Shown: positions 820 through 14,531, counted from the stretch's first letter. The stretch is DNA of 17,839 nt from Deltaproteobacteria bacterium RIFCSPHIGHO2_02_FULL_40_28 (GCA_001798135.1 MGRJ01000025.1:1-17839), one strand, 5' to 3'. Numbers and translations are program-made. The notes: generated by a model from the sequence alone, not told the origin.

Positions 820-1848
820 ATGTTTCAGCCGAAATACGCCATTTCTGATTTCACAACAACCTGTCTCACGAGCATAGAACGTCTCACCGTTCAGCTGGAA
901 CAGTCCATTATTCCAGAAGAGGTTTTGGCCCATATTAAACAACAGTGTTTGGTGGCTCTCACCCATTTTTCCACTCAAATTGAGGGAAACAAACTGTCGA
1001 TGGAGCAGGTTTCTGGCGTTGTTGAAAAACACAGGACATTTGGTTTGGTGAGAGACGAAAAGGAAGTAAAAAATTATTTTATCTTACTTGGCAAAACAAC
1101 AAAACTCATCAGCCAATATAAAAAAAGCCTCACTCATGACCTGATATTACACTGTCACTCAAATCTGTTGAATGGGATAGCAGAAAAAAATGTCAGGGGG
1201 ACATTTAGAAACGTACAAAATGCCATTTATGAGGCCCAATCAGGAAATCTTATTTATTTACCGCCGGAACCAAAGGATGTGACAGGCCTCGTGAGTGACT
1301 TATGCCATTGGATGCGTGGGACAAGCGCCCACCCACTGGTGATGGCCGCCATTTTTCATAATCAATTTGTGACGATTCATCCTTTTGTTGATGGTAACGG
1401 CCGCTCCGCGCGATTTTTAAGTCTGTATCTGTTGGAGGCCAAAAGCTACGACTGGAAAAAAATCGTACCCATTGATCGCTACTATGCTGATGACAGGGGT
1501 CTTTATTACCAGATGTTGCAACAACACTATTCCCCCAATTATTACCATGGCCGCCACGACACAGATTTTACACCATGGGTTGAGTATTACATTACTGGAA
1601 TCAGGATAATTCTTGAGGGCACACTCAATCAGGTGGCCCTTTACAGGGCTAAGAACATTTTAATGAACAATAGGCAGATGAGGATCTTAAAATATCTTGC
1701 ACATCATAAATATATTGTGGTGTCTCAATATGCCAAACGCTTCAGTATCTCCACACGGATGGCGACCAGAGATTTAAGACAACTGGTTGACTGGGGTTAT
1801 CTTGCGGTTTTTGGGCAAGCCAGGGCCACGAAATATTTTTTGAAATAG
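820..1848 (+). CDS. Fic-domain protein with N-terminal inhibitory motif and C-terminal winged helix
   Basis: This 342-aa protein carries the complete Fic active-site motif HPFVDGNGRSAR (residues 187-198), including the catalytic His and the nucleotide-phosphate-binding GNGR loop. Fic proteins usually transfer AMP, or another nucleotide group, to hydroxyl side chains of target proteins. An S-x-x-x-E-G inhibitory helix (S51-TQI-E55-G56) lies N-terminal to the core, so it is a self-inhibited class II Fic. The ATP-flap strand is near LIYLPPE (144-150). Residues about 285-342 look like a winged-helix DNA-binding domain (ISTRMATRDLRQLVDWGYL), which suggests transcriptional autoregulation. It is a single gene with its own promoter and repeat array. 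Its target is unknown. The start fits the -10 position and the usual N-terminus. Confidence 0.9.
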   Translation: MFQPKYAISDFTTTCLTSIERLTVQLEQSIIPEEVLAHIKQQCLVALTHFSTQIEGNKLSMEQVSGVVEKHRTFGLVRDEKEVKNYFILLGKTTKLISQYKKSLTHDLILHCHSNLLNGIAEKNVRGTFRNVQNAIYEAQSGNLIYLPPEPKDVTGLVSDLCHWMRGTSAHPLVMAAIFHNQFVTIHPFVDGNGRSARFLSLYLLEAKSYDWKKIVPIDRYYADDRGLYYQMLQQHYSPNYYHGRHDTDFTPWVEYYITGIRIILEGTLNQVALYRAKNILMNNRQMRILKYLAHHKYIVVSQYAKRFSISTRMATRDLRQLVDWGYLAVFGQARATKYFLK

Positions 1849-1878
1849 TCAATGGGTCCGTTGAAAAACTCCATGTTC

Positions 1879-1901
1879 TGGGCGCTGTTGAAAAACGCCC
1901 A
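1879..1901. other. hairpin between convergent genes
   Basis: TGGGCG (1879-1884) and CGCCCA (1896-1901) form a 6-bp stem around an 11-nt loop, between the fic stop on the plus strand and the HMA gene stop on the minus strand. On the minus strand the next run, TTTTTC, lies about 12 nt away, so it is at best a weak bidirectional terminator. The loop contains the second copy of a GTTGAAAAAC direct repeat (1860-1869, 1887-1896). Confidence 0.35.
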
Positions 1902-1902
1902 T

Positions 1903-2175
1903 CTACTTGATCTCAACCACCTTATAGCCAGCATCGGTAACTGCCTGTACAATGGCGTCCTGGTTGGTTTTGCCTGTTTCATAGGTACATTGACTTTCAC
2001 CACTCTGATGATCGATCGAAACTGCCTGACAGAGGGGTGTCAGCTTTTTTGTGATCATGGCGGAGCACATGGAGCAGGTTATCCCTTCGATTTTCATGTG
2101 CACGGTTTTGGTTTCTTTTGGCGTCGCTATGCCTAGCAAGAATATCCCCAATAGGGCTAGAAGCAGACTTTTCAT
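1903..2175 (-). CDS. periplasmic heavy-metal-associated (HMA) domain protein, MerP-like
   Basis: The 90-aa product starts with a hydrophobic signal peptide (MKSLLLALLGIFLLGIA) and continues into one HMA fold. The metal-binding loop is G-I-T-C-S-M-C (residues 31-37), with both cysteines of the C-x-x-C motif present, followed by the usual helix and the end strand GYKVVEI. MerP and related periplasmic carriers have this length and layout; they bind Hg(II), Cu(I) or similar soft metals and pass them to a membrane transporter. No recognisable transporter gene is adjacent, so the metal and partner are open. A strong AGGAGG lies 7 nt before the ATG. A 39-codon ORF sits just upstream on the same strand. 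Confidence 0.85.
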   Translation of the reverse strand: MKSLLLALLGIFLLGIATPKETKTVHMKIEGITCSMCSAMITKKLTPLCQAVSIDHQSGESQCTYETGKTNQDAIVQAVTDAGYKVVEIK

Positions 2176-2191
2176 AATAGTTCCTCCTTTT

Positions 2192-2311
2192 TTAAGATTG
2201 TTTTGACAACGGCACTAACATTCTCCAGACAGCACTTTTTTTGGCGACACGTACCTTTCTTTTATGGGATCCCCCGTCGGTTGATCCAGTGTTGTCGCAA
2301 ACCCTACTCAT
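2192..2311 (-). CDS. 39-aa small ORF upstream of the HMA gene
   Basis: An ATG at 2311 opens a 39-codon frame beginning MSRVCDNTGSTDGG and ending VPLSKQS, with stop 2192-2194. It is preceded by a good Shine-Dalgarno (AGGGAG, about 6 nt) and its stop lies just before the HMA gene's AGGAGG, so the two could be translated as a pair. The protein is basic with a single Cys and no recognised domain. It may be a leader peptide, a small metal-related protein or chance; the well-placed ribosome-binding site is the main support. Confidence 0.4.
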   Translation of the reverse strand: MSRVCDNTGSTDGGSHKRKVRVAKKSAVWRMLVPLSKQS

Positions 2312-2329
2312 ATTTTTCTCCCTTCCGAT

Positions 2330-2443
2330 TTACATGAGTAGACCGACGACCGCTCCGGTCATCAGGGCGGCGGTTGCCCCTACGAATGCTTTTTGATATA
2401 AGCCTGTAAGGCTTCGCAAGTCACCATCCAGTTGCGCTTCAAT
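2330..2443 (-). pseudogene. possible tail of a membrane-protein gene overlapping the fic 3' end
   Basis: In a minus frame different from fic, an open stretch ends ...YQKAFVGATAALMTGAVVGLLM with stop TAA at 2330-2332. The last 19 residues are small and hydrophobic, like the final transmembrane helix of a transporter. The stop lies 18 nt before the next small ORF's start, as in an operon. A stop codon at 2444-2446 closes the frame upstream, so at most 37 codons exist. It could be the remnant of a transporter once paired with the MerP-like gene and displaced when the fic gene arrived, or a chance reading frame. Confidence 0.2.
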
Positions 2444-3297
2444 TTAAATGCAGGGATCGCCCCGCGTCGGGCCAGAATATTGAGATAGTCTTGCGAGTAA
2501 GGAAATATTTTTGAGGCTTCCGTCAATGAAATAAAATGGGATTTGATCTGCGGAATAACCTCAAAGTAAAGATTGAGGGTCCGCTCTACGGCCCTGCCGA
2601 CAACAAAAATAAAATCATCCGTTTTGCCACGATGTCCCTTTTCCAAGGCATCGTAATATTTTTTTCTATCGTTTTTCAGAATCACAGCCGGAGGGAAACC
2701 ATTCTTCAATAAAACGAGGTTCATCAACAGGCGTGCTGTTCTTCCATTACCATCAACAAAGGGATGAATTGAAACAAAATCAAAATGAGCCAAGGCCGCT
2801 TGTTCCACAGGGTGGCCTTCAACATAAAACAATCTCTTCTTTGCAAACTGCTCCATGAGTTGTGGCAGTTGGATGGCTTCGGGAGGTGTGTGACTGGAAC
2901 CGCTAATACGCACTTGAATATCCCGATACCGTCCCGCATATTGAGAATCAATCTGCTTCAAAACAAGAGAATGAATCTCTTTGATGTTTCGTTCCGTAAT
3001 TTTGGTGTCGTGGAACGCCAGCTCTTCCACGAAAACGATGGCGTCTCTGTGATTGATGGCCTCCAAATGATCCTTCATTGATTTCTTTCCAATGGTGAGT
3101 CCATGTTGCAAAACCATCTGGGTTTCTTTAAGAGTCAGGGAATTTCCCTCAATGGCATTGGAATTATAGGTCCATTCCAAAACGAGTTGTTCCCTCAATC
3201 GTGACACGATAGCGGGAGACAGGGGTCTGTATTGATTGATTAATCGTTTACCCTCATCAATGCGATTAAGGAGATTCTGGAGACGATCGAATATCAT
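2380..3297 (-). CDS. Fic-domain protein with C-terminal excisionase-type helix-turn-helix
   Basis: The 305-aa product has an intact Fic motif HPFVDGNGRTAR (residues 178-189) and an N-terminal inhibitory helix S-N-A-I-E-G (46-51), so it is again a class II, self-inhibited nucleotidyltransferase-type Fic protein. The flap region is near SSHTPPE (134-140). The C-terminus (about 256-303: SLTEASKIF...LNILARRGAIPAFKL...W-M-V) matches the short MerR/excisionase-like HTH often fused to Fic domains; this likely binds the repeats in its own promoter. It is only distantly similar to the Fic protein at 820-1848 and is not a recent duplicate. The start ATG is 7 nt after a consensus -10 box, with no Shine-Dalgarno. 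Confidence 0.9.
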   Translation of the reverse strand: MIFDRLQNLLNRIDEGKRLINQYRPLSPAIVSRLREQLVLEWTYNSNAIEGNSLTLKETQMVLQHGLTIGKKSMKDHLEAINHRDAIVFVEELAFHDTKITERNIKEIHSLVLKQIDSQYAGRYRDIQVRISGSSHTPPEAIQLPQLMEQFAKKRLFYVEGHPVEQAALAHFDFVSIHPFVDGNGRTARLLMNLVLLKNGFPPAVILKNDRKKYYDALEKGHRGKTDDFIFVVGRAVERTLNLYFEVIPQIKSHFISLTEASKIFPYSQDYLNILARRGAIPAFKLKRNWMVTCEALQAYIKKHS

Positions 3298-3304
3298 GCA
3301 TATT

Positions 3305-3332
3305 ATTGTATCCGATCATATCAGGCTGTCAA
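3305..3332 (-). promoter_or_regulatory. sigma70-type promoter of the minus-strand fic gene
   Basis: On the minus strand TTGACA (3327-3332) and TACAAT (3305-3310) are separated by 16 bp. Seven nucleotides later comes the start codon (3295-3297), so transcription should begin at or next to the A of ATG, giving a leaderless mRNA. One of the TGATCGGATA operator-like repeats overlaps the -10 box. Confidence 0.75.
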
Positions 3333-3376
3333 ACCTTATATTGATCGGATAGCATTTATATAACTATATCCGATCA
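3309..3376. repeat. three perfect 10-bp TATCCGATCA sites (operator array)
   Basis: TATCCGATCA occurs at 3309-3318 and 3367-3376, and its reverse complement TGATCGGATA at 3342-3351, all exact. Weaker copies are at 3391-3400 (7 of 10) and inside the first fic codons at 3284-3293 (8 of 10). One perfect copy overlaps the fic -10 box and another lies just upstream of the -35, the usual positions for repressor sites. The HTH at the end of the Fic protein is the likely binder (inference). Confidence 0.65.
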
Positions 3377-3417
3377 AAACATCCAATTGTTGTCCGATTT
3401 CTCACTAACGAATTTTG

Positions 3418-3447
3418 TTGACGTATCATAAATATTCGGCGAATATT
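3418..3447 (+). promoter_or_regulatory. palindrome and probable promoter of the plus-strand ATPase
   Basis: AATATTC-GGC-GAATATT (3431-3447) is a perfect 7-bp inverted repeat with a 3-bp centre, 8 bp before the ATPase start. TTGACG at 3418-3423 could serve as -35 with an 18-bp spacer to AATATT (3442-3447) as -10, placing the palindrome across the spacer and -10 as an operator would be. The start codon follows without a clear Shine-Dalgarno. Confidence 0.45.
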
Positions 3448-3455
3448 GATGGTAT

Positions 3456-4628
3456 ATGGAATACATGAAAAGAATCCTGGAAAAACCCTTGCATCACCAC
3501 CTCAAAAGGGGAAAAAGCATTCTTCTTTTAGGACCTCGGCAAACCGGAAAAACGACACTGCTTTCCCAGTTGTCTGTAGACAAAACCATTACTTTCATGG
3601 AGCCAAAAATAAGACAACGGTACGAAAAGGATCCATCCCTGTTTACCGGTGAGGTTAAAGCCTTGGAACAAAAGCTAAAGAAAATTCCGATTGTGATTGT
3701 TGATGAAGTACAAAAAGTACCCGCAATTTTTGATTGCGCACAGGGGTTAATCGATCAAAAAAACGCTCAATTTATTTTCACCGGTTCTTCAGCCAGAAAA
3801 TTAAAGCGTCACGATGTCAACTTACTACCTGGCCGTGTTGTCAGCATGCGACTGGATCCATTTACTGATAAAGAATATAAAATGACTCTTAAAGAACAAT
3901 TATTGGATGGTTCTTTGCCGGGCATTGCTCAAATTCAATCTCAAGAGGATCGGGAAATCGATTTGCGATCCTACGTTGAAACATACTTGGAAGAAGAAAT
4001 TCGGGCTGAGGCCCTTGTTAGAAATATCGGAAGTTTTTTGAGGTTTTTGGAATTCGCCGGACTTGAGTCGGGCAATATTATCAACTTTCATGGATTATCA
4101 CGGGAGGTCGGTGTGAATCACACAACCATCACCTCTTATTTTGAAATTTTGGAAGATACCCTGATTGCTCATCGCATTGACCCAATCATAAAAAGTTCTA
4201 CGCGCAAGAAATTGACAAAATCAAGTCGGTACTTGATTTTTGATCTGGGGGTGCGAAGACTATGTGCTGCAGAAGGAAGGATGTTGGGAAGAGAGCGACT
4301 CGGTTATCTATTTGAACAATATATCGGTTTGGAACTCATTCGCTATTCCCATCTTTCTTCCGGAAAAACGAAAATTCGTTTTTGGAGAGATCCAGACGGG
4401 CCGGAGGTCGATTGGGTTATAGAAAAAGACCGAAAGTATATTCCCATCGAAGTCAAATGGACCGATACCCCCTCCATGAGGGATGCCAAACACCTCAAGG
4501 TTTTTCTCGAAGAATACAAAGAAGCGACGAAGGGCTACATCGTTTGTCAAACGCCGTTTCCCGTACAAATTGACAAAAATATTCAGGCTATCTCATGGAA
4601 AGAGGTTCATCAATTGATTGAAGGGTAG
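3456..4628 (+). CDS. AAA ATPase with DUF4143 and PD-(D/E)xK-like C-terminal domain
   Basis: The 390-aa protein has Walker A G-P-R-Q-T-G-K-T-T (residues 26-34), Walker B IPIVIVDE (77-84) and the sensor-like stretch FIFTGSSARKLKR (107-118). A winged-helix and DUF4143 region follow (about 165-390). The end carries the nuclease-fold signature E-V-D-W-V (317-321) and I-E-V-K-W (331-335). This family is common as single, mobile-looking genes; its biological role is not established. ATP binding is confident; nuclease activity is only suggested by the E-V-D...E-V-K residues. A second ATG at 3465 (MKRILEKPL) has a GGA just upstream and is a plausible alternative start. The gene ends 2 bp from the convergent arsenic operon. 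Confidence 0.88.
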   Translation: MEYMKRILEKPLHHHLKRGKSILLLGPRQTGKTTLLSQLSVDKTITFMEPKIRQRYEKDPSLFTGEVKALEQKLKKIPIVIVDEVQKVPAIFDCAQGLIDQKNAQFIFTGSSARKLKRHDVNLLPGRVVSMRLDPFTDKEYKMTLKEQLLDGSLPGIAQIQSQEDREIDLRSYVETYLEEEIRAEALVRNIGSFLRFLEFAGLESGNIINFHGLSREVGVNHTTITSYFEILEDTLIAHRIDPIIKSSTRKKLTKSSRYLIFDLGVRRLCAAEGRMLGRERLGYLFEQYIGLELIRYSHLSSGKTKIRFWRDPDGPEVDWVIEKDRKYIPIEVKWTDTPSMRDAKHLKVFLEEYKEATKGYIVCQTPFPVQIDKNIQAISWKEVHQLIEG

Positions 4629-4630
4629 AG

Positions 4631-5290
4631 TTAAGTCCTCTTCTTAAAAATCTTGGGCAGTAATGATAAAAGAATGACGAGCAGAAAGGGCCCCCATACT
4701 TGAACTTGCAGCCAAGTCGAGGGATCTGCAAAACTCAAATGCCGTCCGGCGGAACCCAAAGAGGTGTAAACAAATGTTCCGGGAAGCATTCCCAGAAGGG
4801 TTGCAAGCAGGTAATCCCGAAAAGAGACTTTTGTCAGGCCCAGGCCGAAATTCAAACCGTTGAACGGAAATAAAGGAACCAACCGTAAAATGAGGACGGA
4901 ATAAAATCCGTTGTTGCCGATTTTTTCGTCCAGTCCATGAAGAGTTCCTTTGCCCTTGAGAATCTTTGTTACGGCATCCCGCCCCAAATAACGGGCAAGG
5001 AGAAAACTGATTATGGCTCCAATGCTGGCAGAGAGCCAGTTGATCAGTGTGCCCCACCAGGCACCAAATAAGAGACCACCACCAATCGTTAAAACCGATC
5101 CCGGAAGAGCAAAGACCGTGGCGGCAATGTAGATGAGTCCAAAGACAAGAGGAGCCAAAACACCTTGGGACCGAATCCATGCCTCCAAGGTAACAAAACC
5201 CTCTTTGGACAAATAATCCCGAACCGGCGTAAAAAAATAGAGCCCAAGAACACCGGAAATAAAAAGAATGAGGAGAAATCCTTTCTTCAT
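4631..5290 (-). CDS. TVP38/TMEM64 (DedA-superfamily) membrane protein
   Basis: The roughly 219-aa protein has about six hydrophobic segments and the hallmarks of the SNARE-associated/VTT domain: F-A-L-P-G-S-V-L-T-I-G-G-G-L-L-F-G (about 60-76) and the re-entrant region LVPLFPFNGLNFGLGLT (about 137-153), then GTFVYTSLGSA. Relatives act in the inner membrane, some in lipid scrambling, others near metal-handling genes with no proven substrate. I chose the ATG at 5288-5290 over an upstream in-frame TTG because GGAGG lies 8 nt before the ATG and only 1 nt before the TTG. It follows the flavoprotein stop by 1 nt, so it is the last gene of the arsenic operon. Confidence 0.88.
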   Translation of the reverse strand: MKKGFLLILFISGVLGLYFFTPVRDYLSKEGFVTLEAWIRSQGVLAPLVFGLIYIAATVFALPGSVLTIGGGLLFGAWWGTLINWLSASIGAIISFLLARYLGRDAVTKILKGKGTLHGLDEKIGNNGFYSVLILRLVPLFPFNGLNFGLGLTKVSFRDYLLATLLGMLPGTFVYTSLGSAGRHLSFADPSTWLQVQVWGPFLLVILLSLLPKIFKKRT

Positions 5291-5291
5291 A

Positions 5292-6710
5292 TTATCCAAA
5301 CCTCCATTGAAAATAACGCTTCAACCACTTTTTTGAACCATCGGTTAGTCGAGTGCGCTGATACGTATCGGCAATGCGTTTGCTTAACTCCGCCAGCGTT
5401 GGATACACATGAATCATCGAAGCTACTTTCTTTAATCCAATCTTTTGATGCATGGCCAGAGCCAACTCATGCAATAAATCCCCGGCATGTAATCCAACAA
5501 GTGTGACTCCTAAAATTTGATCTGCCCCCATTGAAGTGAGAACTTTGATAAAGCCTTCATCCTCCCTATCGCACACTGCCCTATCGAGATCTGTCATAGC
5601 GTAGGTGAAAACATCGACGGGAATATTTTTTTGTTTGGCCTCCGATTCGTTGATTCCCACGCGGGCCACTTCGGGTTCGGTAAACGTGCACCACGGCACA
5701 ACACGATAATCGATTTTTGATTTTCCAGGAAATAAGGCGTTGCGAAGGATGAGCCTGGCCTGAAAATCGGCGGTATGGGTGAATTGATAAGGGCCAACAA
5801 TATCGCCACAGGCATAAATGTGTTTGGCTGTCGTTTGGAGTGTTGCGTCTACTTTGATTCCCTTTTTGTCGTACTGAACCCCCGCTTTTTCCAAGCCGAG
5901 ATCATTCACATTGGGGGCTCGTCCCACGGCCACAAGAATCTGGTCGAATGCGATTTTTCTTTTCTGTCCGTTCGGATCAGAAACAATCAAGCCACCATCG
6001 ATTTGTTCAGCCTTGGTTTTAAGCAAAACGGTAAGCCCTTCCGCCTCAAATCTCTTTTTGACCAACTCGGACACTTCGGGGTCTTCACGAATCAACAGCC
6101 TATCGGCCATTTCAACAAGGGTGACTTTACTGCCAAGTCTCGCAAAGGTTTGCGCCAGTTCTGCCCCGATTGGGCCACCTCCCAAAACGATGAGGTTTTT
6201 CGGCAGCTCTTTTAACTGCCACACATTGTCGCTCGTCAGAGAGGGAATTTTGTCTAAACCGGGAATGGGAGGCACAAAGGGGGCGGCACCCGTAGCAATA
6301 CAAAAACGTTTTGCCTCCAGGGTTTCCTTGCCGTTTGAAATTTGATTCGGAGAAATAAATTGGTATTCACCCAGATGGACGTCAACTCCGAGCGACGTGA
6401 ATCTTTCGACGGAATCATGGTGAGCAAGTTTGGTTTGAACCTCGCGGACGGAGGCCAGAATTGAATCGAGTTTGATGTCAAACCGGTGCGGTTTCAATCC
6501 GAACCGCTCGGCGGTTTGCGCATCATGAATAATTTTTGCCGAGCGGATGATGGCCTTCGACGGCACACAGCCGGTGTTGAGGCAATCACCACCCATCTTG
6601 TGTTTTTCAATCAGCGCTACTTTGGCCCCCAAGCCCGCCGCACCAGCTGCGGCGACCAAACCGCCGGATCCAGCTCCAATTACAATCAGATGGTATTTCT
6701 TGGTTTGCAT
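5292..6710 (-). CDS. FAD/NAD(P)-dependent disulfide oxidoreductase, MerA/Lpd-like
   Basis: The roughly 472-aa flavoprotein has the FAD GxGxxG loop G-A-G-S-G-G (residues 12-17), the redox-active C-L-N-T-G-C (Cys43 and Cys48), the NAD(P) loop GGGPIG (about 177-182) and the second FAD motif ACGDIVG. At the C-terminal active site the usual HPT of glutathione and lipoamide reductases reads V-Y-P-T-L-A-E, so Tyr takes the place of the catalytic His. The paired Cys tail and HMA domain of true mercuric reductase are absent, so mercury reduction should not be assumed. Genes of this type often sit next to TVP38 proteins, as here. The ATG at 6708-6710 has AGGAG 5 nt upstream; an in-frame TTG precedes it. 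It starts 10 nt after the methyltransferase stop. Confidence 0.9.
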   Translation of the reverse strand: MQTKKYHLIVIGAGSGGLVAAAGAAGLGAKVALIEKHKMGGDCLNTGCVPSKAIIRSAKIIHDAQTAERFGLKPHRFDIKLDSILASVREVQTKLAHHDSVERFTSLGVDVHLGEYQFISPNQISNGKETLEAKRFCIATGAAPFVPPIPGLDKIPSLTSDNVWQLKELPKNLIVLGGGPIGAELAQTFARLGSKVTLVEMADRLLIREDPEVSELVKKRFEAEGLTVLLKTKAEQIDGGLIVSDPNGQKRKIAFDQILVAVGRAPNVNDLGLEKAGVQYDKKGIKVDATLQTTAKHIYACGDIVGPYQFTHTADFQARLILRNALFPGKSKIDYRVVPWCTFTEPEVARVGINESEAKQKNIPVDVFTYAMTDLDRAVCDREDEGFIKVLTSMGADQILGVTLVGLHAGDLLHELALAMHQKIGLKKVASMIHVYPTLAELSKRIADTYQRTRLTDGSKKWLKRYFQWRFG

Positions 6711-6720
6711 CAACGCTCCT

Positions 6721-7323
6721 TTAAATTTGTGCCACGATCAATTTCAAAACATCGCCCGTAATGTTTTTTTCCTGGATAATTTGAAACCCTTCCTTTTGCA
6801 GGGTGGCAAGCGTGTCTTGGGTAAAATCAACCCCAAACATGAAACGGGTGTAGGGAGTAACCATCTTTTGAATAAATCGCCGGACCGGTTTTTTCGACAA
6901 CACATATTCAAGGAAATAAATTTTTCCGTCTTTTTTACAAATACGTTTTAATTCGCGTGCAGCTAGGACCGGTTGGTCCACCACACAACAGAGAAAGGTT
7001 GCTACAACAGCATCAAAGGTTCCGTCAGAAAAAGGGGTGTGATAAACACTCATCTTTTGGAGGTCGACATTTTTCCCGAGCGAGGAGGCCTTTGCCTTGG
7101 CGCGTTCCAACATTCCCGCACTTAAATCGATGCCGAAGACTTGCTGATTCTCCGGGTAAAAGGGAATGTTGGAGCCGGTGCCCACACCGGCATCCAAAAT
7201 CTTGCCTGATAGGCCCTTCCAAATCCGTTGCCTGATCTTTCGATAGCGGAATCGCTCGAAGGGCCAATCGATCCAGTCATAGAATCTAGAAGTGCGGTCA
7301 AATTTTTTCTCTAAGTTTTCCAT
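6721..7323 (-). CDS. class I SAM-dependent methyltransferase (UbiE/Methyltransf_11 type)
   Basis: The 200-aa protein shows methyltransferase motif I I-L-D-A-G-V-G-T-G (about 42-50), the acidic strand-2 end GIDLS (about 64-68), and VVATFLCCVVDQP with a late ELKRICKKDGKIYFLE motif. The SAM fold is clear; the substrate is not. Its N-terminus (FDRTSRFYDWID) resembles methyltransferases of phospholipids and quinones as much as small-molecule enzymes, and the conserved arsenite-binding cysteine set of ArsM is absent. Two in-frame ATGs exist, at 7329 and 7323; the second has GGAG at 7 nt and is preferred. Either way it overlaps the end of the glycosyltransferase gene, so translation is probably coupled. 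Confidence 0.85.
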   Translation of the reverse strand: MENLEKKFDRTSRFYDWIDWPFERFRYRKIRQRIWKGLSGKILDAGVGTGSNIPFYPENQQVFGIDLSAGMLERAKAKASSLGKNVDLQKMSVYHTPFSDGTFDAVVATFLCCVVDQPVLAARELKRICKKDGKIYFLEYVLSKKPVRRFIQKMVTPYTRFMFGVDFTQDTLATLQKEGFQIIQEKNITGDVLKLIVAQI

Positions 7324-8627
7324 ATACATTCTCCTGTCAAGGTCGTTTCAATCCAATTCATCATTTCCATCTGAGTTGGCATTTGCGAGTTTTGAAGTTC
7401 ACTTTTTAGATTTGGAAGGTCCTCATAAACATCGACGTCTGTAAGCGTGGGCAGATAGGCCACTTCGCCATAGCTTTTGATTTTGGTCACCAATTCGTCA
7501 CAGGTTGATGGCTGACTGTACGCAACGGAATTCCACACGTGTTGTGGCAAGGCTTTAGCCCCCCCAAAGAGATAAAAACCGCCATCACGCGCGGGACCGA
7601 TGACAAATTTATTTTTGTCTTTCAAAAGATGATGCGTTTCTAAAAGCGCATCTTGAGACAATTGCGGCGCATCGGCACCAATCAGAATGACTCGACCGTG
7701 AACAAAATATAAAGTTGAATAAACATGGTGAAGCCTTTCTCCTAGATCACCATTACCTTGCCAGACGCGGTTAAAATCATTCCAGCGATGATCGCTAAGC
7801 CCCTGTTTTTCCGCCACGGCCCAATAGGGATACACCAAGGCCGGTGTTGATTGCCTGAAGGGAGACAATGTTTTTTGAATCGCTTCCAAACACAAATCAT
7901 AAAATGCGAGTGCGGATTCTTTTCCAATCGTATCCGCCAACCGTGTTTTTAACGGAGTGATACCCGGCGTTTTGACGAACACGGCGATAGCGGTGGTCTG
8001 GTAGCGAAGTATGCGTTTCAGTGTTTCCCTTTCAAGGCGGGCTTGCCGGGTCCATAGCTTGTAATAGAGCCCTGTGGTATGAAACCAACCCTGTTCCTGA
8101 TATTTGCGAGCGCTGGTTTTCAGGGTGGCCCCTGTTGATTTGAGAGGCACGCCGTGCTGATGCGCACGCCAAACAAACAAATGATCTTCGCCATAAGGGG
8201 CCTCTTCAGGAAAACCACCGATGCGTTCAAAATTAATTCTTGAAAGACAAAAGCCCTGATCGCCAAAAGGCAGCCCCATAAGCCGCGAGCGAATCCAACA
8301 ACCGATTTCGTTGATCCACATTTGTGGTGGGCCATCGGGCAAAAAGCGCAGATTGAAATAATGAAGGGCGTGAGGGTTGTTGCTCAGAGACCTGAGCAAC
8401 GCCTCCAGAGTGTTGTGAGAAAATCTCGAATCGGCATGCAGAAACCAGAGAAAATCACGCGTCGCTTTTTGCGCACCAATGTTGAGTTGCTTGGCGCGTG
8501 ATGAACCCCGAACAACGATCAATTCCGCCTCTTTTTCAATCGGTCGAAGATCTTCCCAAAGTGCTTCCAGTTCATTTTCTTCTGGACCGACAGGAATGAT
8601 GATCGAGATGTCTTTAAAAGTAATCAT
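7311..8627 (-). CDS. fused two-domain glycosyltransferase of the arsenosugar type (TIGR04283 + TIGR04282/DUF2064)
   Basis: Residues about 5-205 form a GT2-type transferase: SIIIPVG start, L-H-A-D-S-R acidic motif (about 64-68), GDQGF, and E-D motif GEDHLFVW. This is the pattern of TIGR04283 arsenosugar glycosyltransferases. Residues about 211-410 form a DUF2064/TIGR04282 domain: VKTPGITPLKTRLA, I-G-A-D-A-P-Q-L and GPARDGGFYLFG, a nucleotidyl/glycosyl-transferase-like fold. The two are often separate neighbouring genes; here they are one 438-aa chain. The ATG at 8625-8627 follows an AGG and lies 10 nt after the arsM stop; an upstream in-frame TTG would overlap arsM by 65 bp and is less likely. 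The sugar donor is unknown. The link to arsenic comes from the family names and the neighbours. Confidence 0.85.
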   Translation of the reverse strand: MITFKDISIIIPVGPEENELEALWEDLRPIEKEAELIVVRGSSRAKQLNIGAQKATRDFLWFLHADSRFSHNTLEALLRSLSNNPHALHYFNLRFLPDGPPQMWINEIGCWIRSRLMGLPFGDQGFCLSRINFERIGGFPEEAPYGEDHLFVWRAHQHGVPLKSTGATLKTSARKYQEQGWFHTTGLYYKLWTRQARLERETLKRILRYQTTAIAVFVKTPGITPLKTRLADTIGKESALAFYDLCLEAIQKTLSPFRQSTPALVYPYWAVAEKQGLSDHRWNDFNRVWQGNGDLGERLHHVYSTLYFVHGRVILIGADAPQLSQDALLETHHLLKDKNKFVIGPARDGGFYLFGGAKALPQHVWNSVAYSQPSTCDELVTKIKSYGEVAYLPTLTDVDVYEDLPNLKSELQNSQMPTQMEMMNWIETTLTGECIWKT

Positions 8628-8637
8628 ATTGCAACCT

Positions 8638-9693
8638 TTAACAGCACCCTTGGTTCGATGGCGGCTCAATGGAACCAACTGATCCTTTCGGGCCACAATC
8701 AAATAAGCCGTAGTGCGTTGATAAATCCCCTTCGACTCGGAAGTGCGGCGCGTATCGGGTCTGCGTCAGCATCGCCGCCGTGTTACTGCACACAAGCACG
8801 GGCCTTCCTTTTTCAAAAAGGTGATGATCATCCAGCGGGAAGGCCTGCGGACATTGGGGGATGGTCCCCAGGTAATAGGCTACCTGACCATAGTCCTCAC
8901 AGCGATCCTCCAACTTTAGCTTGAAGGCCCGAACGGTCACCGAATAAAATGAAATGGCCCCCAGTTGATGTTCCAGTTCAGGATTTTCGATGGTGAGCTT
9001 TCTTTGTGTTACCACACGGTGGTCAAGGCACCCCACATCCATCATGAGCCTTCGAAAATCTTCGGTATACAAGGCTCCGCCAAGGCACTCGCCAACCAAT
9101 GTCGGATCTTTTGCCAGATGTTGTGGTATTCTCCGGTCGGAAAAGATATCCGCGAAATAGAGTTCCCCGCCGGATTTCAGAACACGGAAGATTTCGGAAA
9201 AAACCTTCCGCTTTTCCGGTGAGAGATTGATGACACAATTGGAGACCACAACATCGATGGACCCTGTCTTGATTCCCAATCCCTCAAGGTCTTCGATATA
9301 TCCATTTAAGAATTCTACATTGCTCTTGCAGTAATCGAAGGTTTGGGCGTGATAGTTGATGTGTTTTTTTGCGACCGCTAATTGTTCCGTCGTCATATCA
9401 ACACCGATCACCTTGCCTTCCGGCCCCACGAGTTTGGAAAGGAGGAAGGTGTCTCGTCCCGTTCCGCAACCGAGATCCAAAACCGTTTTGCCCTCCAATA
9501 CGGCAGGGATTGGCGAGCCGCATCCGTAAAATTTCTCCAATACCTCCGGATGAATCTGACTGAGGATCGGCTTCAGATGCGCGGGCATAGCATCTAGCGT
9601 ACAACAGGCGTTGGTTTTTAAGTCCACATTGGTTTTGAGCGTCTTCCCATAATATTGTTTTACCGTTTCCAGGGCATGATGATTGTCTGTCAT
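8638..9693 (-). CDS. arsM: arsenite S-adenosylmethionine methyltransferase ArsM
   Basis: The 351-aa enzyme methylates As(III) using SAM. Motif I is D-L-G-C-G-T-G-R-D (about 73-81). The family's four conserved cysteines are present as C30, C58 (in Y-G-C-G-S-P-I-P), C153 (in SNCVINLSP) and C203 (in GECLGGALY). Their spacing (28 and 50 residues between outer pairs) matches C44/C72 and C174/C224 of the well-studied algal ArsM. A C-terminal extension holds further cysteines and ends in a Cys-Cys pair. The ATG overlaps the ArsS stop (ATGA at 9690-9693), has GGAGG 9 nt upstream, and is preferred to an in-frame TTG six codons earlier. No arsR regulator is visible in the window. Confidence 0.93.
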   Translation of the reverse strand: MTDNHHALETVKQYYGKTLKTNVDLKTNACCTLDAMPAHLKPILSQIHPEVLEKFYGCGSPIPAVLEGKTVLDLGCGTGRDTFLLSKLVGPEGKVIGVDMTTEQLAVAKKHINYHAQTFDYCKSNVEFLNGYIEDLEGLGIKTGSIDVVVSNCVINLSPEKRKVFSEIFRVLKSGGELYFADIFSDRRIPQHLAKDPTLVGECLGGALYTEDFRRLMMDVGCLDHRVVTQRKLTIENPELEHQLGAISFYSVTVRAFKLKLEDRCEDYGQVAYYLGTIPQCPQAFPLDDHHLFEKGRPVLVCSNTAAMLTQTRYAPHFRVEGDLSTHYGLFDCGPKGSVGSIEPPSNQGCC

Positions 9694-10655
9694 ATCAGTT
9701 TTCCTCCACAAGATGATCCGGCCCCTGCCGTACAGCCAAAACAGTGATTGGCAAAGGCGATGGGGGTCTCAAAGATTTGATCGAAGGTTTCAATATCCCA
9801 AATGCTTGTTTGTGTCTTCCCCATAGGAATATCCAACATCTGATTAAAATCGCAATCGTAGATTTGTCCATCCCACCCGATGGAAATCAGGTTTCGGCAC
9901 ATGACGCTCGAAGCCGCAGTGACATTGAAAGTGTTCACGAGCAATGTCATGTATTCTTCATATTTATTTTCTCTGACCAATTGATCCAAAAATCGCTTGA
10001 TCGGCATATTGGTAATCGTGAAGAGATGGTTGAATTCGATGCCGAAGAGTGCGCGCAGTTCTTTTTTGTAATCAAGTTCGAGCTTCTCTTGTGAGGGAGG
10101 CAAAAAAGCTCCCAGCGGATTGTACACCAGATCAAGTGTGAGTGCCAAAGCGTTCTTCCCGTAACCGAGCTTATTCAACAATTTCAAAGCGCGGATACTT
10201 TTATCAAAGACACCACTGCCTCGTTGTGCATCCACATTTTTCTTGGAATAACATGGGAGAGAGGCCACTACTTTCACCTGATGTTCTTTCAGAAAATAAG
10301 CGGTTTCCTCCTGACCCTTCTCGAAGAAGACCGTCAGATTACACCGGTCGATCACTTCCTTATTCCGTTGCCTGGTTGCTACAACCAGTGTGCGGAAATG
10401 AGGATTGAGTTCGGGCGCGCCGCCGGTGATATCAACCGTGTGAATGGTGGGCGATTGATCCAAGAGTTCGATCAGGCGATCAACCGTTTTCTTTTCCATG
10501 ATTTCGGTCCGTTTGGGACCCGCCTCTACATGACAATGATGGCAGGCCTGGTTGCAGAGCTTGCCGACATTGATTTGCAAGATCTCCAACGGTTTGCGTG
10601 TAATGTCGATCCGATGTTTGACCAGCTTGTTTCCAAATGAAAATTGTGGATTCAT
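9690..10655 (-). CDS. arsS: arsenosugar-biosynthesis radical SAM protein ArsS
   Basis: The 321-aa protein opens the operon. The radical-SAM cluster motif is C34-x3-C38-x2-C41 (CNQACHHC), followed by G-G-A-P-E-L (78-83). The C-terminal DUF3641 region holds C253, C268, and C-F-G-C-T-A-G-A-G-S-S-C (305-316), cysteines that probably bind an auxiliary cluster. ArsS-type enzymes are understood to attach a 5'-deoxyadenosyl group to dimethylarsenic, the committed step to arsenosugars. Some relatives carry selenocysteine; here the positions are ordinary Cys codons and no internal TGA is seen. The start ATG has AAGGA 5 nt upstream. No convincing promoter is visible in the 150 bp before it. Confidence 0.92.
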   Translation of the reverse strand: MNPQFSFGNKLVKHRIDITRKPLEILQINVGKLCNQACHHCHVEAGPKRTEIMEKKTVDRLIELLDQSPTIHTVDITGGAPELNPHFRTLVVATRQRNKEVIDRCNLTVFFEKGQEETAYFLKEHQVKVVASLPCYSKKNVDAQRGSGVFDKSIRALKLLNKLGYGKNALALTLDLVYNPLGAFLPPSQEKLELDYKKELRALFGIEFNHLFTITNMPIKRFLDQLVRENKYEEYMTLLVNTFNVTAASSVMCRNLISIGWDGQIYDCDFNQMLDIPMGKTQTSIWDIETFDQIFETPIAFANHCFGCTAGAGSSCGGKLI

Positions 10656-10700
10656 TTGATTCCTTCTTACCCGAAGAACGAATTACGTGAGCGAAAAACG

Positions 10701-10754
10701 AAATTTGGCGCAGACAAATTTTTTGTGCGCCCAACTGGACGCTTTTAGAACCGC
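10701..10754 (-). other. degenerate tRNA-3'-end-like sequence with tRNA-terminator-like flank
   Basis: On the minus strand GGTTC (10748-10752) is followed, about 15 nt later, by GGGCGC (10727-10732), then a CAAA-rich flank with the inverted repeat AAATTTG / CAAATTT (10715-10721, 10701-10707), then TCGTTTTTCG. The sequence after the tRNA-Arg(TCT) at 17671-17735 has the same order: GGGCGC, CAAA, an AAATTTTG / CAAAATTT repeat, then TCGTTTATCG. It looks like a decayed tRNA-Arg 3' end with its original downstream flank. This also makes up most of the 150 bp between the BRO-N gene and arsS. Confidence 0.35.
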
Positions 10755-10779
10755 GTGCGCCGAGTTGGCGATTGTTGTT

Positions 10780-10808
10780 TAATTCGCTACCCGTTGGGTA
10801 GCGAATTA
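10780..10808. other. perfect 13-bp hairpin at the 3' end of the BRO-N/DinD gene
   Basis: TAATTCGCTACCC and its exact complement flank a 3-bp centre (GTT). The right arm ends at the gene's own TAA stop (10806-10808). On the minus strand there is no T run after the stem, so it is not a textbook Rho-independent terminator; on the plus strand it is followed by TTTCCCC. It may still stop transcription or protect the mRNA 3' end. Confidence 0.5.
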
Positions 10809-11630
10809 TTTCCCCTTTAAAGCTTTGTGAATCTTCTTATTCGGTAAAAAATTTGATTTGGACACAACCGATCGTCCAAGTCTCTTTTCCAATTCACGCC
10901 TTGCTCCCCCTGCAATCTCACCACCTGCTTTAGCATCGTTTTTGAGTTTGGGCATTCCTTTTGAATCTTCATTTTTGTGAATTTCCGTTGTAGAACGTTC
11001 GCCCAACATTGTAAAAATGAGTTCAAAATCGTCCATGTGGTCACGCAGGTTCTCTCGTTTGAGGCCTTTGAGGTTTTTATACTCAGAGGGAGTGACACCA
11101 AAGGTGGCTTTTGAAACTTCTGCTGTCAGAATTTCGTAGTCTTTTTGTTCTTGTGCTCCGCGTTTTTGCCACTCGTCTGTGAGTTCCTCTCGAATGGCGA
11201 TGCCACGCATACGTTTCTCGATCCAATCTTCGGGATAACCTTTGAGCTTGTAAAGCATTCGAGTACGCTTGGTAGCTAATTCAGGATTTTCAATTTCTTG
11301 CACATGCTCGTAACCGATTTTGGCCAGCCATCGTTTGAATGGCTCTGCTTTCGATGAAGGAATGGATTGGATAATGCGAAAAATACCTTCAGTATTGGCG
11401 CAATTGATCTTTTGCTTACCTCCACCTGTTTCCACAGAAAGGGGGGTGGCAATTTGCCCCCACCCTTTGGAAAGTTCAGGGTCGCGACGACGCATGTCTT
11501 TAATATAGCCCGTCGGCTGAACAGAGTCAGTCAGCACAGCCACAACATCTTCAATAACGAACCACCATTCGTCGTTATAAAGTGTTTTACGGATTTGTTT
11601 TCCTTTAAAAATTGCGATTTTTGTTTCCAT
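10806..11630 (-). CDS. BRO-N / DinD-like DNA-damage-inducible protein
   Basis: The product (274 aa from the METKIAIFKG start) begins with a Bro-N fold: IAIFKGKQIRKTLYNDEWWF, a DVV-A-V-L-T-D segment and NTEGIFRIIQSIPSSKAEPF. It then has the second half typical of DinD-type proteins (L-A-T-K-R-T-R-M-L-Y-K-L-K-G-Y, then EWQKRGAQEQKDYEILTAEVSKATFG). E. coli DinD binds RecA and limits strand exchange; whether this relative does so is unknown. Bro-N genes are typical phage and mobile cargo. The family N-terminus favours the ATG at 11630 over one nine codons upstream inside the tRNA flank. It lies about 40 bp downstream of tRNA-Arg on the same strand, so it could be read from the tRNA promoter. No Shine-Dalgarno is seen. 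Confidence 0.8.
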   Translation of the reverse strand: METKIAIFKGKQIRKTLYNDEWWFVIEDVVAVLTDSVQPTGYIKDMRRRDPELSKGWGQIATPLSVETGGGKQKINCANTEGIFRIIQSIPSSKAEPFKRWLAKIGYEHVQEIENPELATKRTRMLYKLKGYPEDWIEKRMRGIAIREELTDEWQKRGAQEQKDYEILTAEVSKATFGVTPSEYKNLKGLKRENLRDHMDDFELIFTMLGERSTTEIHKNEDSKGMPKLKNDAKAGGEIAGGARRELEKRLGRSVVSKSNFLPNKKIHKALKGK

Positions 11631-11670
11631 TTTAATTTGGAAAGTCAACGACCTCATGGTTTAAAATTTG

Positions 11671-11744
11671 CGCGCCCGGACGGATTCGAACCGCCGACCC
11701 TCTGGTTCGAAGCCAGATGCTCTATCCAGCTGAGCTACGGGCGC
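11671..11744 (-). tRNA. tRNA-Arg (anticodon TCG)
   Basis: The minus strand folds as a complete cloverleaf: acceptor GCGCCCG/CGGGCGC, D arm GCTC...GAGC with the G18-G19 pair, anticodon arm TCTGG-CTTCGAA-CCAGA, T arm GGCGG-TTCGAAT-CCGTC, discriminator G. CCA is not encoded. It reads CGA and related arginine codons. Its own promoter lies 24 bp upstream. Confidence 0.95.
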
Positions 11745-11767
11745 TTTTAAAAATATAAAACTTTACC

Positions 11768-11796
11768 TTCATAAATCCTTGGAAGGGTGATGGCAA
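11768..11796 (-). promoter_or_regulatory. promoter of tRNA-Arg(TCG)
   Basis: On the minus strand TTGCCA (11791-11796), 17 bp, TATGAA (11768-11773). The box continues TTGCCATCACC, as it does upstream of tRNA-Arg(TCT). The expected start leaves a 5' leader of about 17 nt for RNase P to remove. The remaining bases 11797-11862 show nothing else I can support. Confidence 0.65.
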
Positions 11797-11862
11797 GTTT
11801 TTTAAAGTTAAAGTGCTGTTGCGGGAAGGCCTTTGGTGGAGATGCCGGTGATGATTAAGTTT

Positions 11863-13056
11863 TTACACTAGATGACCAAGCGGCACAATCCGCATTTCTT
11901 TGCCAAGTAAACGATCGGTTTTACCCTGATGTATAAACAAACAGCGGGCACTGCTATAATTTGCAATAAAGCTTTGGGCACTTGCCAACTCATGTCTACC
12001 AGGCACTTCATCCAACATGGGAATAAAACCCAAAATGCCCTGTTTCGTGCGCAGTGCAAGAGGGACAAAAGCCCCCCCACGGTTACGAAACTGGAATAAT
12101 GTTCCCTGCAATTCGGGCCGATACACCCATTGTTGTCTTATAAATGAAAACAAGAATCTGGTCATATTTTTCAGCGGCTCTCGATTCTCACCGGTAAGGT
12201 GACTCGCCTCGCCCTGATCCTCAAAAAATAATACAGGACGCTGACGTGTACCTTCTGTTGCCACAATTCTAATGACAAACATGGATTCCAAAGCCGAGAT
12301 CAGCCGACGCAATGCTGGTACTGAAATATGGGTTGCACGCGACACCTCTGTTAGTTCGATTGGTTCTGCCTGCCGTGCTGCAAAAACCGATAAAAGATTT
12401 CTGAGCACGCGAAAATCAAGACTGGTTTGAATGAGGAGTCGAAGATCCCGCTCGAGTAAAGTCTCGATTTGAGTTTCGAAGCGCTGACGTCTTACGGCAG
12501 TATCTCTCACTGCAAAAATGCCGGGTAATCCACCCTGATTCAAAGCCAGCAAAAAAGTTTTTTCAGAGAAATAAGAAGCCATTGAGAGCTGGCAACTCAT
12601 ATCCTTTGAGGATAAAAGACGTGGCACAGCATTGGGGAGAGGGGCCGAATGAGACTCGCTTAAATCCATTGGCAAAAGTTCCCAGTTAACAATACGCCCC
12701 GTAAGTGATTCACGTATCGCCTTTCGGCTGGAAAATCGTACCGATCCTGTGAGCAAAAATTGACCCGGTTTTTTATGGGTTCTAACCCATTCTTTGAGTG
12801 CCGGAAATATTGGTGGTGCAAGCTGACATTCATCAATCACGAGTGGCTGCCCTGCGTTGGAACGAATTAAGGCCTCGGGCGAGTACAAGCCCTGATCCAA
12901 TATTTCTTTGCGATCGAAAGTTAAATAATTCTGCGCAAGGCCTTCACAAAGCGTTGTTTTACCCACCTGACGATGGCCAAAAAGACCAACGATGGAACTA
13001 AAACGAAGTGACTTAACGAGCAATCCCTGCAAGTTGCGTTTTCGTATATGTGGCAT
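11863..13056 (-). CDS. AAA ATPase of the DUF4143-related type, degenerate C-terminus
   Basis: The 397-aa protein has Walker A G-H-R-Q-V-G-K-T-T (residues 27-35), Walker B PLVIDE (71-76) and sensor-like FLLTGS (100-105), then GGLPGIF and an E-R-D-L helix as in DUF4143 ATPases, and a probable winged helix (about 235-275). The C-terminal nuclease-like signature seen in the ATPase at 3456-4628 is not recognisable (no E-V-D or I-E-V-K). It is only distantly similar to that ATPase. The start at 13056 (MPHIRKRN) matches the family; an ATG 16 codons upstream would lie upstream of the -10 box. The -10 TATACT is 6 nt before the ATG, so the mRNA is probably leaderless. Confidence 0.82.
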   Translation of the reverse strand: MPHIRKRNLQGLLVKSLRFSSIVGLFGHRQVGKTTLCEGLAQNYLTFDRKEILDQGLYSPEALIRSNAGQPLVIDECQLAPPIFPALKEWVRTHKKPGQFLLTGSVRFSSRKAIRESLTGRIVNWELLPMDLSESHSAPLPNAVPRLLSSKDMSCQLSMASYFSEKTFLLALNQGGLPGIFAVRDTAVRRQRFETQIETLLERDLRLLIQTSLDFRVLRNLLSVFAARQAEPIELTEVSRATHISVPALRRLISALESMFVIRIVATEGTRQRPVLFFEDQGEASHLTGENREPLKNMTRFLFSFIRQQWVYRPELQGTLFQFRNRGGAFVPLALRTKQGILGFIPMLDEVPGRHELASAQSFIANYSSARCLFIHQGKTDRLLGKEMRIVPLGHLV

Positions 13057-13062
13057 AAACTC

Positions 13063-13071
13063 AGTATAGCA
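13063..13071 (-). promoter_or_regulatory. extended -10 promoter of the minus-strand AAA ATPase
   Basis: On the minus strand TGCTATACT (TG-n-TATACT, an extended -10) ends 6 nt before the start codon. No close -35 match sits at 17 bp (TTGCGT at 16 bp is weak), which an extended -10 can tolerate. Confidence 0.5.
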
Positions 13072-13166
13072 GACACCTGTCAAAACGCAATACCTATATT
13101 CCATATTGACAGATATAAAAAGAGTAGCTCTTCAATTTCCAACCGTAAAAAAAGTAATTATTTATC

Positions 13167-13667
13167 TTAATGGGGAAAAAGTAGATTTATAGCCTGAGCT
13201 GAATACTCATCCTCAAGAAATTTATATCGGACGTTCAAAACCAAAAGCCAGTTTAATAATCTCCTCAAGAATATCTTCTTCCATGATTGTCTCATAGATT
13301 CCATGTACTTTTCCCCTATTGGATAAAGAACATGCCCATCCCCTAATGATATTCCTCCGTCAGCCTGTGGCTCAATTTTAACCGAATACCCGTGCTTCCA
13401 ATCTTCCAGAGTTTTCGTTTCTTTCAAGATCAAATTACCTTGTTGATAAATTCGTTGTACTGGAACGGGTATATTTTCACGAGGTTTTACTGGATCATTT
13501 AAAATTTGTGTCCTGACGAAACGGCACAGTCGGAATAAAGCTAAAGGCCCTCCATAGTGGCGCCAATCAAACTCCTTGCCGTGTAAATCTGCTGTATCCA
13601 GAGTAATAGTTTTATCAACGGAAAAGACTTTGTTTCGACAGTTTCCAAGAGTTTTCCTATACCGCAT
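13167..13667 (-). CDS. unrecognised 166-aa protein, third gene of the toxin-antitoxin operon
   Basis: The ATG at 13667 overlaps the end of the HTH antitoxin gene by 11 bp and has GAAGAA a few nt upstream; an in-frame TTG four codons earlier is possible. The protein starts MRYRKTLGNCRNKVFSV, has mixed beta-like segments (DKTITLDTADLHGKEFDW, NLILKETKTLEDW, YSVKIEPQADGGISL) and ends in a basic amphipathic and hydrophobic helix (WKKIFLRRLLNWLLVL) before LLFPH. There is no signal peptide. I recognise no family. The overlap implies it is co-expressed with the toxin and antitoxin. It may be a third component (chaperone, second toxin or immunity-type protein) or unrelated cargo. Confidence 0.65.
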   Translation of the reverse strand: MRYRKTLGNCRNKVFSVDKTITLDTADLHGKEFDWRHYGGPLALFRLCRFVRTQILNDPVKPRENIPVPVQRIYQQGNLILKETKTLEDWKHGYSVKIEPQADGGISLGDGHVLYPIGEKYMESMRQSWKKIFLRRLLNWLLVLNVRYKFLEDEYSAQAINLLFPH

Positions 13668-13956
13668 GATTTTCTTCAAAATCCAGCACTAAAGATTTTT
13701 TTAAGGCTCTGGCAATTTTTTGCAACATGCTGAGTGAGTGCCCGTCATAATCCGCATCCTCCAAACGAGAAATAACAGACTGCTTGGTGCCAATCAGTGA
13801 TGCCAATTGAGATTGTGTCAACCCTGCCGCTTCACGTGTTTCACGAATTAGACAAGCAATTTGAAAGTTCAGTTTTTCTTCTTCATAGGCTTTTTTAAGA
13901 GATGGTTTTTTTTCGGCACGCCGCTTTAGAATCTGAATTGCATTTTTAGTTTTCAT
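13657..13956 (-). CDS. XRE-family HTH antitoxin (HigA-like)
   Basis: The 99-aa protein has a lysine-rich N-terminal helix, then a Cro/C1-type HTH at about residues 34-90 (LIRETREAAGLTQSQLASLIGTKQSVISRLE...LSMLQKIARAL). This is the usual HigA architecture: it would neutralise the toxin encoded just upstream and repress the operon. The ATG at 13954-13956 follows the toxin TGA by 1 nt, and its Shine-Dalgarno (AAGGAG) lies inside the last toxin codons, so translation is coupled. An in-frame ATG 14 codons further up lies inside the toxin gene and lacks such a site. Confidence 0.88.
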   Translation of the reverse strand: MKTKNAIQILKRRAEKKPSLKKAYEEEKLNFQIACLIRETREAAGLTQSQLASLIGTKQSVISRLEDADYDGHSLSMLQKIARALKKSLVLDFEENHAV

Positions 13957-13957
13957 G

Positions 13958-14326
13958 TCATTCTCCTTCGTAAATATGAACTTTTGGTTTCGTCTCACAC
14001 AAAACTTTATTTTTTATGGCCTGCTCAATTTCTTTTGGAGGCACGATATCTTCCTTGGTAAATCCATGCGACAAAACAACGGCGGCTCGACCCTGAAAAA
14101 AATACAAAATCCGATAATTTACCGACTGATGACGCCAACGTAGTTCGTAAATTCCGTCACATAAATAATCTGCATGAGGTCTGCGCATTTCATGGCCACA
14201 TAATGCCAGCTCTTCAATGCGTACCAAAGCTTTGGCTTCGATTTTGTCGGGCAATTTATCGAGCCATTCCAGCACAGGAACTTTTCCCTTTTCGTCTTTA
14301 AAGAAAACAACACTAATCTTCGGCAT
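13958..14326 (-). CDS. RelE/HigB-type toxin, phage Gp49-like family (PF05973)
   Basis: The 122-aa protein shows the Gp49/HigB layout: VLEWLDKLPDKIEAKAL helix pair, D-G-I-Y-E-L-R-W-R (57-65), Y-R-I-L-Y-F-F (71-77) and the HGFTKE strand (87-92). Relatives are ribosome-dependent mRNA interferases. Toxin-before-antitoxin order, as here, is the HigBA arrangement. The C-terminus (CETKPKVHIYEGE) extends slightly past the usual fold. The -10 TATAAT is 5 nt before the ATG and there is no Shine-Dalgarno, so the toxin is probably translated from a leaderless mRNA while the antitoxin has a strong internal ribosome-binding site. That would favour antitoxin excess. Confidence 0.88.
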   Translation of the reverse strand: MPKISVVFFKDEKGKVPVLEWLDKLPDKIEAKALVRIEELALCGHEMRRPHADYLCDGIYELRWRHQSVNYRILYFFQGRAAVVLSHGFTKEDIVPPKEIEQAIKNKVLCETKPKVHIYEGE

Positions 14327-14359: not shown

Positions 14360-14457
14360 ATTCTTTTTTGGCAGCATTTGCTTTAGGCAGAAATCAATTG
14401 AACAATTGATTCTGAAAAACGTCACCAACAACAGGCAACCATCACCGATAGTAACTG

Positions 14458-14531
14458 TGCGCCCGGACGGATTCGAACCGCCGACCCTCTGGTTCGAAGC
14501 CAGATGCTCTATTCAGTTGAACTACGGGCGC
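14458..14531 (-). tRNA. second tRNA-Arg (anticodon TCG), D arm altered, possible pseudo-tRNA
   Basis: The cloverleaf is recognisable and the 3' 54 bases are identical to the tRNA at 11671-11744. Three changes all fall in the D arm: position 11 C to T (wobble with G24), G15 to A (breaks the 15-48 Levitt pair, since 48 is C) and G19 to A (breaks the conserved G19-C56 contact). The discriminator is A instead of G. It lies directly after tRNA-His and would be processed from the same transcript. It may be poorly functional. Confidence 0.85.

Follow-up and report, generated by a model that had tools for sequence, protein, structure and literature searches.

An arsenosugar-type operon with a probable redox/membrane module in a deltaproteobacterial genome

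The genome of Deltaproteobacteria bacterium RIFCSPHIGHO2_02_FULL_40_28 (2.16 Mb, estimated completeness 100 %) contains a six-gene cluster which is read here, with a probability of roughly 0.6, as an arsenosugar-biosynthesis operon carrying an attached redox/membrane module; its last three genes would contribute redox, membrane and product-tailoring steps. The cluster locates on the 17.8-kb contig MGRJ01000025.1 (17,839 nucleotides), the whole of which was analysed and is referred to as the window. The operon is largely of a known kind, and the attachment of its flavoprotein and TVP38 genes is recurrent and not, as had first been thought, unusual.

The operon extends from position 10655 to 4631 on the minus strand and comprises six intact ORFs without internal stops. 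These encode the radical SAM protein ArsS (9690–10655), with a CxxxCxxC motif (CNQACHHC) and the C-terminal cysteine motifs of DUF3641; the full-length As(III) S-adenosylmethionine methyltransferase ArsM (8638–9693); a GT2-type glycosyltransferase fused to a DUF2064 nucleotide-sugar transferase domain (GT, 7311–8627); a small class I SAM methyltransferase (Methyltransf_11) which is PmtA-like according to a fold model (MT, 6721–7323); an FAD pyridine-nucleotide disulfide oxidoreductase with the redox site GGDCLNTGCVPSK and an HxYPT base (PNDO, 5292–6710); and a TVP38/VTT membrane protein of the DedA superfamily (VTT, 4631–5290). The corrected starts are at 10655, 9693, 8627, 7323, 6710 and 5290, respectively. 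Overlaps exist between arsS and arsM (4 nt, ATGA) and between GT and MT (13 nt), while the remaining junctions are gaps of 10 nt (arsM-GT), 10 nt (MT-PNDO) and 1 nt (PNDO-VTT). An earlier note on this DNA had placed six genes here, overlapping or separated by 1–10 nt; all proved intact, and the strand is now fixed as minus. The same note had credited each gene with a good ribosome-binding site, which holds for five (AAGGA, GGAGGA, AGGAG, AAAGGAG and GGAGG, 6–10 nt spacing) but not for GT with its weaker AAGG, and had listed a glycosyltransferase, which is correct as to family but not as to a single domain, since TIGR04283 and TIGR04282 domains are fused. The GC content is uniform within the operon (0.45–0.50; whole window, 0.38–0.50). 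Upstream of arsS, the intergenic leader (10656–10805, minus strand) adjoins no regulator gene, the next gene being Bro-N (10806–11657), and contains no promoter-like site; promoter and terminator scans yielded nothing above shuffled sequence. The arrangement is not due to chance, because six genes on the same strand are joined by tight junctions and are jointly retained in relatives.

In a profile search, ArsS scored 453 bits against TIGR04167 (cut-off 300); DUF3641 (PF12345) is present, and the cysteines of the cluster motif and the C-terminus are invariant across nine homologues. The first gene product is accordingly classed by sequence as a member of the ArsS family, for which adenosylation of dimethylarsenite is predicted from the family. 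ArsM matched the solved ArsM 5evj with 367 bits (residues 8–348) and 4fr0/4kw7 with 320 bits across nearly the full length (phmmer), and its four catalytic-type cysteines (positions 30/31, 58, 153 and 203) align with those of solved ArsMs. This long ArsM is nearer to the solved full-length enzymes than to the NCBIfam model AsSugarArsM (NF038099; 111.7 bits, cut-off 400), of which it is not a member. Both parts of GT are relatives and not members of their families, one part scoring 159.2 bits against TIGR04283 (cut-off 182) and the other 133.7 bits against TIGR04282, 0.3 below the cut-off of 134; a sibling GT fusion clears TIGR04282 at 145.3 bits. Both families are termed 'arsenosugar biosynthesis glycosyltransferase' by NCBI, and their domains recur in other arsS loci, either fused or adjacent. 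ArsM, ArsS and the two GT domains can thus be assigned as members or close relatives of known pathway families. The arsenosugar-type character proposed earlier is upheld by an ArsS above its curated cut-off, an ArsM with retained cysteines and GT families recurrent in arsS loci. In the literature surveyed, no paper connected TVP38, DUF2064 or DUF3641 to arsenosugars.

PNDO is of the PRK06370 type (NF004991; 606 bits, cut-off 620) and contains Pyr_redox_2 and dimerisation domains. Its CxxxxC pair (C43 and C48) and H434 are invariant among homologues, and with FAD/NAD domains and a C-terminal histidine base it has the features of a disulfide reductase. VTT scored 104.6 bits against PF09335 (gathering score 33.9) and possesses several hydrophobic segments. 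Equivalent parts make up the 'bifunctional TVP38/TMEM64 family protein/FAD-dependent oxidoreductase' of NCBI, which is a fused protein, whereas VTT and PNDO of the window are encoded by separate adjacent genes.

The phylum is poorly sampled, with only 46 genomes, and ArsS was found in ten of them. PNDO homologues above 380 bits occur in exactly these ten genomes, each at the arsS locus; all remaining PNDO matches stay below 275 bits and branch separately in the PNDO tree. Since the genomes are related, the ten-out-of-ten match does not represent ten independent events. Both GT families, PNDO and VTT are present in 10/10 of these arsS loci, and ArsM is nearby in 9/10. The exact order arsS-arsM-GT-MT-PNDO-VTT (S-M-G-T-P-V), whose conservation the earlier note had suggested checking, was found solely in the window and in the relative L093, G2-S-M-G1-T-P-V (L095) being a near-variant; other loci show S-M-G-x-x-P-V (L092) or P-G2-S-M-G1-V (L097–L100), and PNDO and VTT also lie near arsS in unrelated taxa. 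Retention of the gene set through rearrangement supports a functional unit, and this co-conservation in the phylum bears out that the extra genes truly belong to the operon. In the sibling operon L092, a PHO4 phosphate transporter is encoded directly upstream of arsS.

Beyond the phylum, 80 named arsS loci were inspected, the 80 top-ranking of at least 592 matched stretches and hence biased toward window-like ArsS; many of them end at contig edges. PNDO and VTT both lie within 7 kb of arsS in ten of the 80 (PNDO in 14, VTT in 15), and loci with both belong to Burkholderiales, Rhodospirillales, Thiotrichaceae, several Deltaproteobacteria and others. Most of the 38 loci whose flanks extend over 7 kb on each side lack PNDO or VTT in the vicinity, and ArsS function therefore requires neither. 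Of 299 sampled Pseudomonadota genomes, 78 possess PNDO and ArsS, 52 PNDO alone, 37 ArsS alone and 132 neither (odds ratio 5.4, p 2e-11, without correction for relatedness). In 16 of the 78 genomes with both, PNDO and arsS are no more than 5.2 kb apart, and no genome shows a distance between 5.2 and 45 kb; by simple arithmetic, random positions in a 3-Mb genome predict well below one such close pair for 78 genomes. Plasmids likewise carry arsS with TVP38-PNDO. On the PNDO tree, the arsS-linked state requires 17 changes, 15 of them forced by well-supported branches, and the association must therefore have been gained or lost repeatedly. Many PNDOs of Pseudomonadota form one protein with VTT, some adjoining arsS. 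Such fusions, judged by open-frame length, were found in 47 genomes, 22 of which lack ArsS; many of the ArsS-free loci have DUF547, ABC transporter or CDP-alcohol phosphatidyltransferase neighbours instead (the latter two names were taken from annotated relatives). These findings led to rejection of the proposition that PNDO-TVP38 is always part of an arsS cluster; in general, the pair is not reserved for arsS. Its occurrence without ArsS marks it as an auxiliary module repeatedly joined to arsS clusters and not as a pathway-specific invention; PNDO and VTT form a pair that recurs beside arsS, either as joined genes or as a fusion. Among the three final genes, all regarded in the earlier note as non-standard members, only MT retains this status, whereas PNDO and TVP38 are found in many unrelated arsS loci and plasmids. 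The further possibility considered there, that these genes occur together equally often without arsS, finds agreement in the ArsS-free fusions, but not in the enrichment and co-localisation of PNDO with ArsS or its exclusiveness in the phylum.

The ArsS-free fusions also lend themselves to another explanation, which makes PNDO-TVP38 a membrane redox unit of general use in metal or thiol homeostasis and merely a co-expressed passenger in this operon, MT being equally incidental. As the pair occurs in arsS-free genomes and at other loci, often with the neighbours named above, it need not act on arsenic here; yet its exclusive linkage to arsS in the phylum, the 16 tight co-localisations in Pseudomonadota and the repeated gain or loss argue for a connection, and some arsS-free copies stand beside another radical SAM protein, once together with ArsM and both GT domains. 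A passenger role is considered somewhat unlikely.

This radical SAM protein, which is not ArsS, neighbours VTT-PNDO fusions at four loci (L237, L238, L239 and L241), its best NCBIfam match being Rv1681-like and far under the cut-off. The locus with ArsM and both arsenosugar GT families is L241 (4915–10643), and its radical SAM protein is possibly an alternative arsenic enzyme. A further arsS cluster (L058), whose ArsS is 55 % identical to that of the window, lies on a contig labelled as a Halobacteria archaeon MAG; this contig is possibly misassigned.

The fourth gene represents the truly non-standard part of the operon. Strong relatives of MT (>110 bits) were detected in five of the ten ArsS genomes of the phylum and in none of its other genomes (46 genomes in total); three lie within the operon and two 2–3 kb off on the opposite strand. 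MT is absent from all 80 other named arsS loci examined; apparent matches at some arsS loci of Nitrospira proved to be ArsM proteins picked up by a loose profile and were not counted. It therewith seems to be a lineage-specific, local addition. A second ArsM was considered for this gene and rejected, the ArsM cysteine set being absent and the best fold match being PmtA. The AlphaFold model (mean pLDDT 86) is closest to the phosphatidylethanolamine N-methyltransferase 8ys9 (PmtA; TM 0.85/0.82, 24 % identity), with the next matches mostly at 0.6–0.75, and predicts a long N-terminal helix with many basic and aromatic residues. MT scored 81.8 bits against the PmtA model NF045882 (cut-off 390) and is not a member; likeness to PmtA in action is suggested by the fold only, which indicates a substrate at the membrane surface.

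The fold of MT, the VTT protein and a phospholipase in a sibling operon make an arsenolipid branch conceivable, in which an arsenosugar lipid is formed, MT methylates its head group or ribose and VTT moves the lipid across the membrane. Pointing in this direction are the clear proximity of MT to 8ys9, its basic and aromatic helix, the MT slot of L092 (4100–11733), which is occupied by a CMD-family protein and a patatin-like phospholipase, and FA_hydroxylase/sterol-desaturase genes near other arsS loci; moreover, both arsenosugar phospholipids and a phytyl 2-O-methyl arsenosugar are known from nature (PMC7345539). However, class I methyltransferases form a varied group, and the operon contains no lipid synthase gene; because fold resemblance does not fix the substrate, this branch receives low weight and is judged unlikely. 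Still more doubtful is a new arsenolipid route, with MT methylating the arsenosugar or its lipid and TVP38-PNDO serving as a membrane redox/translocation unit for pentavalent organoarsenicals; an example product of MT would then be, with the same strong reservation, a 2-O-methyl riboside as known from algae and saline lakes.

Identification of PNDO as MerA was rejected, since it scored 398.4 bits against TIGR02053 (cut-off 454) and its C-terminus reads KRYFQWRFG, without the cysteine pair; no HMA domain is present in its sequence. A mainly mercury-type or selenium system, with PNDO as MerA-like metal reductase and TVP38 as metalloid transporter, is very improbable: the MerA score, MerT-like genes some kb from sibling arsS loci and papers mentioning DedA proteins with selenite, as well as one that connects a DedA protein with indium extrusion, are outweighed by these missing features and by the partners ArsS, ArsM and arsenosugar GT families. 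The MerT-like membrane proteins are encoded at L098:4668–5030 and L092:17126–17506, and a small HMA-like protein just below the Pfam gathering score is encoded in the window at 1903–2175 (minus strand).

Within the favoured arsenosugar reading, ArsM would methylate As(III) to dimethylarsenite and ArsS would add the 5'-deoxyadenosyl group of SAM to the arsenical, both steps being proposed because they are established family functions; the ArsS reaction has been described experimentally (Cheng 2021, as cited in PMC12159101). Cleavage of the resulting nucleoside may be performed by a phosphorylase encoded elsewhere, for which the MTAP-type gene on contig 15 of the genome is a plausible candidate; MTAP-related genes also occur in other arsS neighbourhoods and plasmids. 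The fused GT/DUF2064 protein would then transfer arsenoribose to its aglycone, a step assigned on account of the NCBI family naming. PNDO, which VTT may anchor or accompany at the membrane, could keep arsenic or the thiols involved in a reduced state, and VTT could serve the hydrophobic or membrane-facing side through export or translocation of lipids, neither Acr3 nor ArsP having been detected in the genome. The PmtA-like MT may tailor the product, most likely acting on a membrane-facing substrate. No enzymes are assigned to arsenosugar or arsenolipid steps after ArsS in the literature surveyed. Together with its relatives, the operon ties a specific flavin reductase and a VTT protein to ArsS across unrelated bacteria, and it supplies one concrete candidate tailoring methyltransferase, which could make an unexplained arsenic compound testable.

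The Synechocystis ArsM-ArsS pathway (PMC8552651) has in common with the window an ArsS above the TIGR04167 cut-off, the ArsM cysteines and relatives of both GT families; in the window, by contrast, the GT domains are fused and MT, PNDO and VTT are added in one apparent transcription unit. The Acinetobacter plasmid NZ_CP096121 carries arsS and, in consecutive order, genes for a TVP38/FAD-oxidoreductase fusion, DUF547, GTs, a methyltransferase and a phosphate transporter, with mtnP last. It shares the core of ArsS, both GT families, a methyltransferase and TVP38 plus PNDO, but differs by the fusion of TVP38 and PNDO, the presence of DUF547, phosphate transporter and mtnP, and no annotated PmtA-like MT. 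This cluster locates at 132832–146181 (L290), and the plasmid name includes NDM-1. The arsQML arsinothricin operon (PMC8552651) resembles the present one in its combination of radical SAM protein, ArsM and membrane protein; there, however, ArsL transfers a 3-amino-3-carboxypropyl group, a GntP-type permease performs the export and arsR is located upstream.

The genome-wide search for arsenic genes covered ArsR, Acr3, ArsP and LMW-type ArsC. No ArsR-type (HTH_5) protein was detected near the operon or in the whole genome, nor was any Acr3, ArsP or LMW-phosphatase-type ArsC found genome-wide; all searches were positive in control genomes. The absence of a visible arsR before the operon, recorded in the earlier note, is thereby extended to the entire genome, and the operon does not classify as an ArsR-controlled ars operon. 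With Acr3, ArsP, LMW-type ArsC and ArsR undetected, arsenosugar formation may be the principal arsenic defence. A few kb from several arsS clusters of the phylum lie genes for an ECF-type sigma factor and/or for its anti-sigma-like and MgtC-family neighbours (L097:13494–15658, L098:5607–6535, L092:14289–15869 and L100:1683–2327); given the absence of ArsR, this sigma factor is a candidate regulator.

The operon is flanked in the window (820–4628 and 10806–14326) by genes for Fic proteins, AAA_14/DUF4143 ATPases, Bro-N and a Gp49/HTH pair resembling a toxin-antitoxin system, which gives the region an island-like character. Three tRNA-Arg genes (two of them 95 % alike) and a tRNA-His gene locate at 11670–11744, 14457–14608 and 17603–17677. 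The arms of a 42-nt inverted repeat (11766–11807 and 17413–17454) lie near tRNA genes, and an ORF for an 896-aa proline/alanine-rich protein without Pfam match (14727–17417, plus strand) is positioned between tRNA genes. Upstream of the Fic gene at 2380–3297, two 39-nt direct repeats (3285–3381) with GATCGGAT-like palindromic arms were observed, which possibly constitute an autoregulatory operator.
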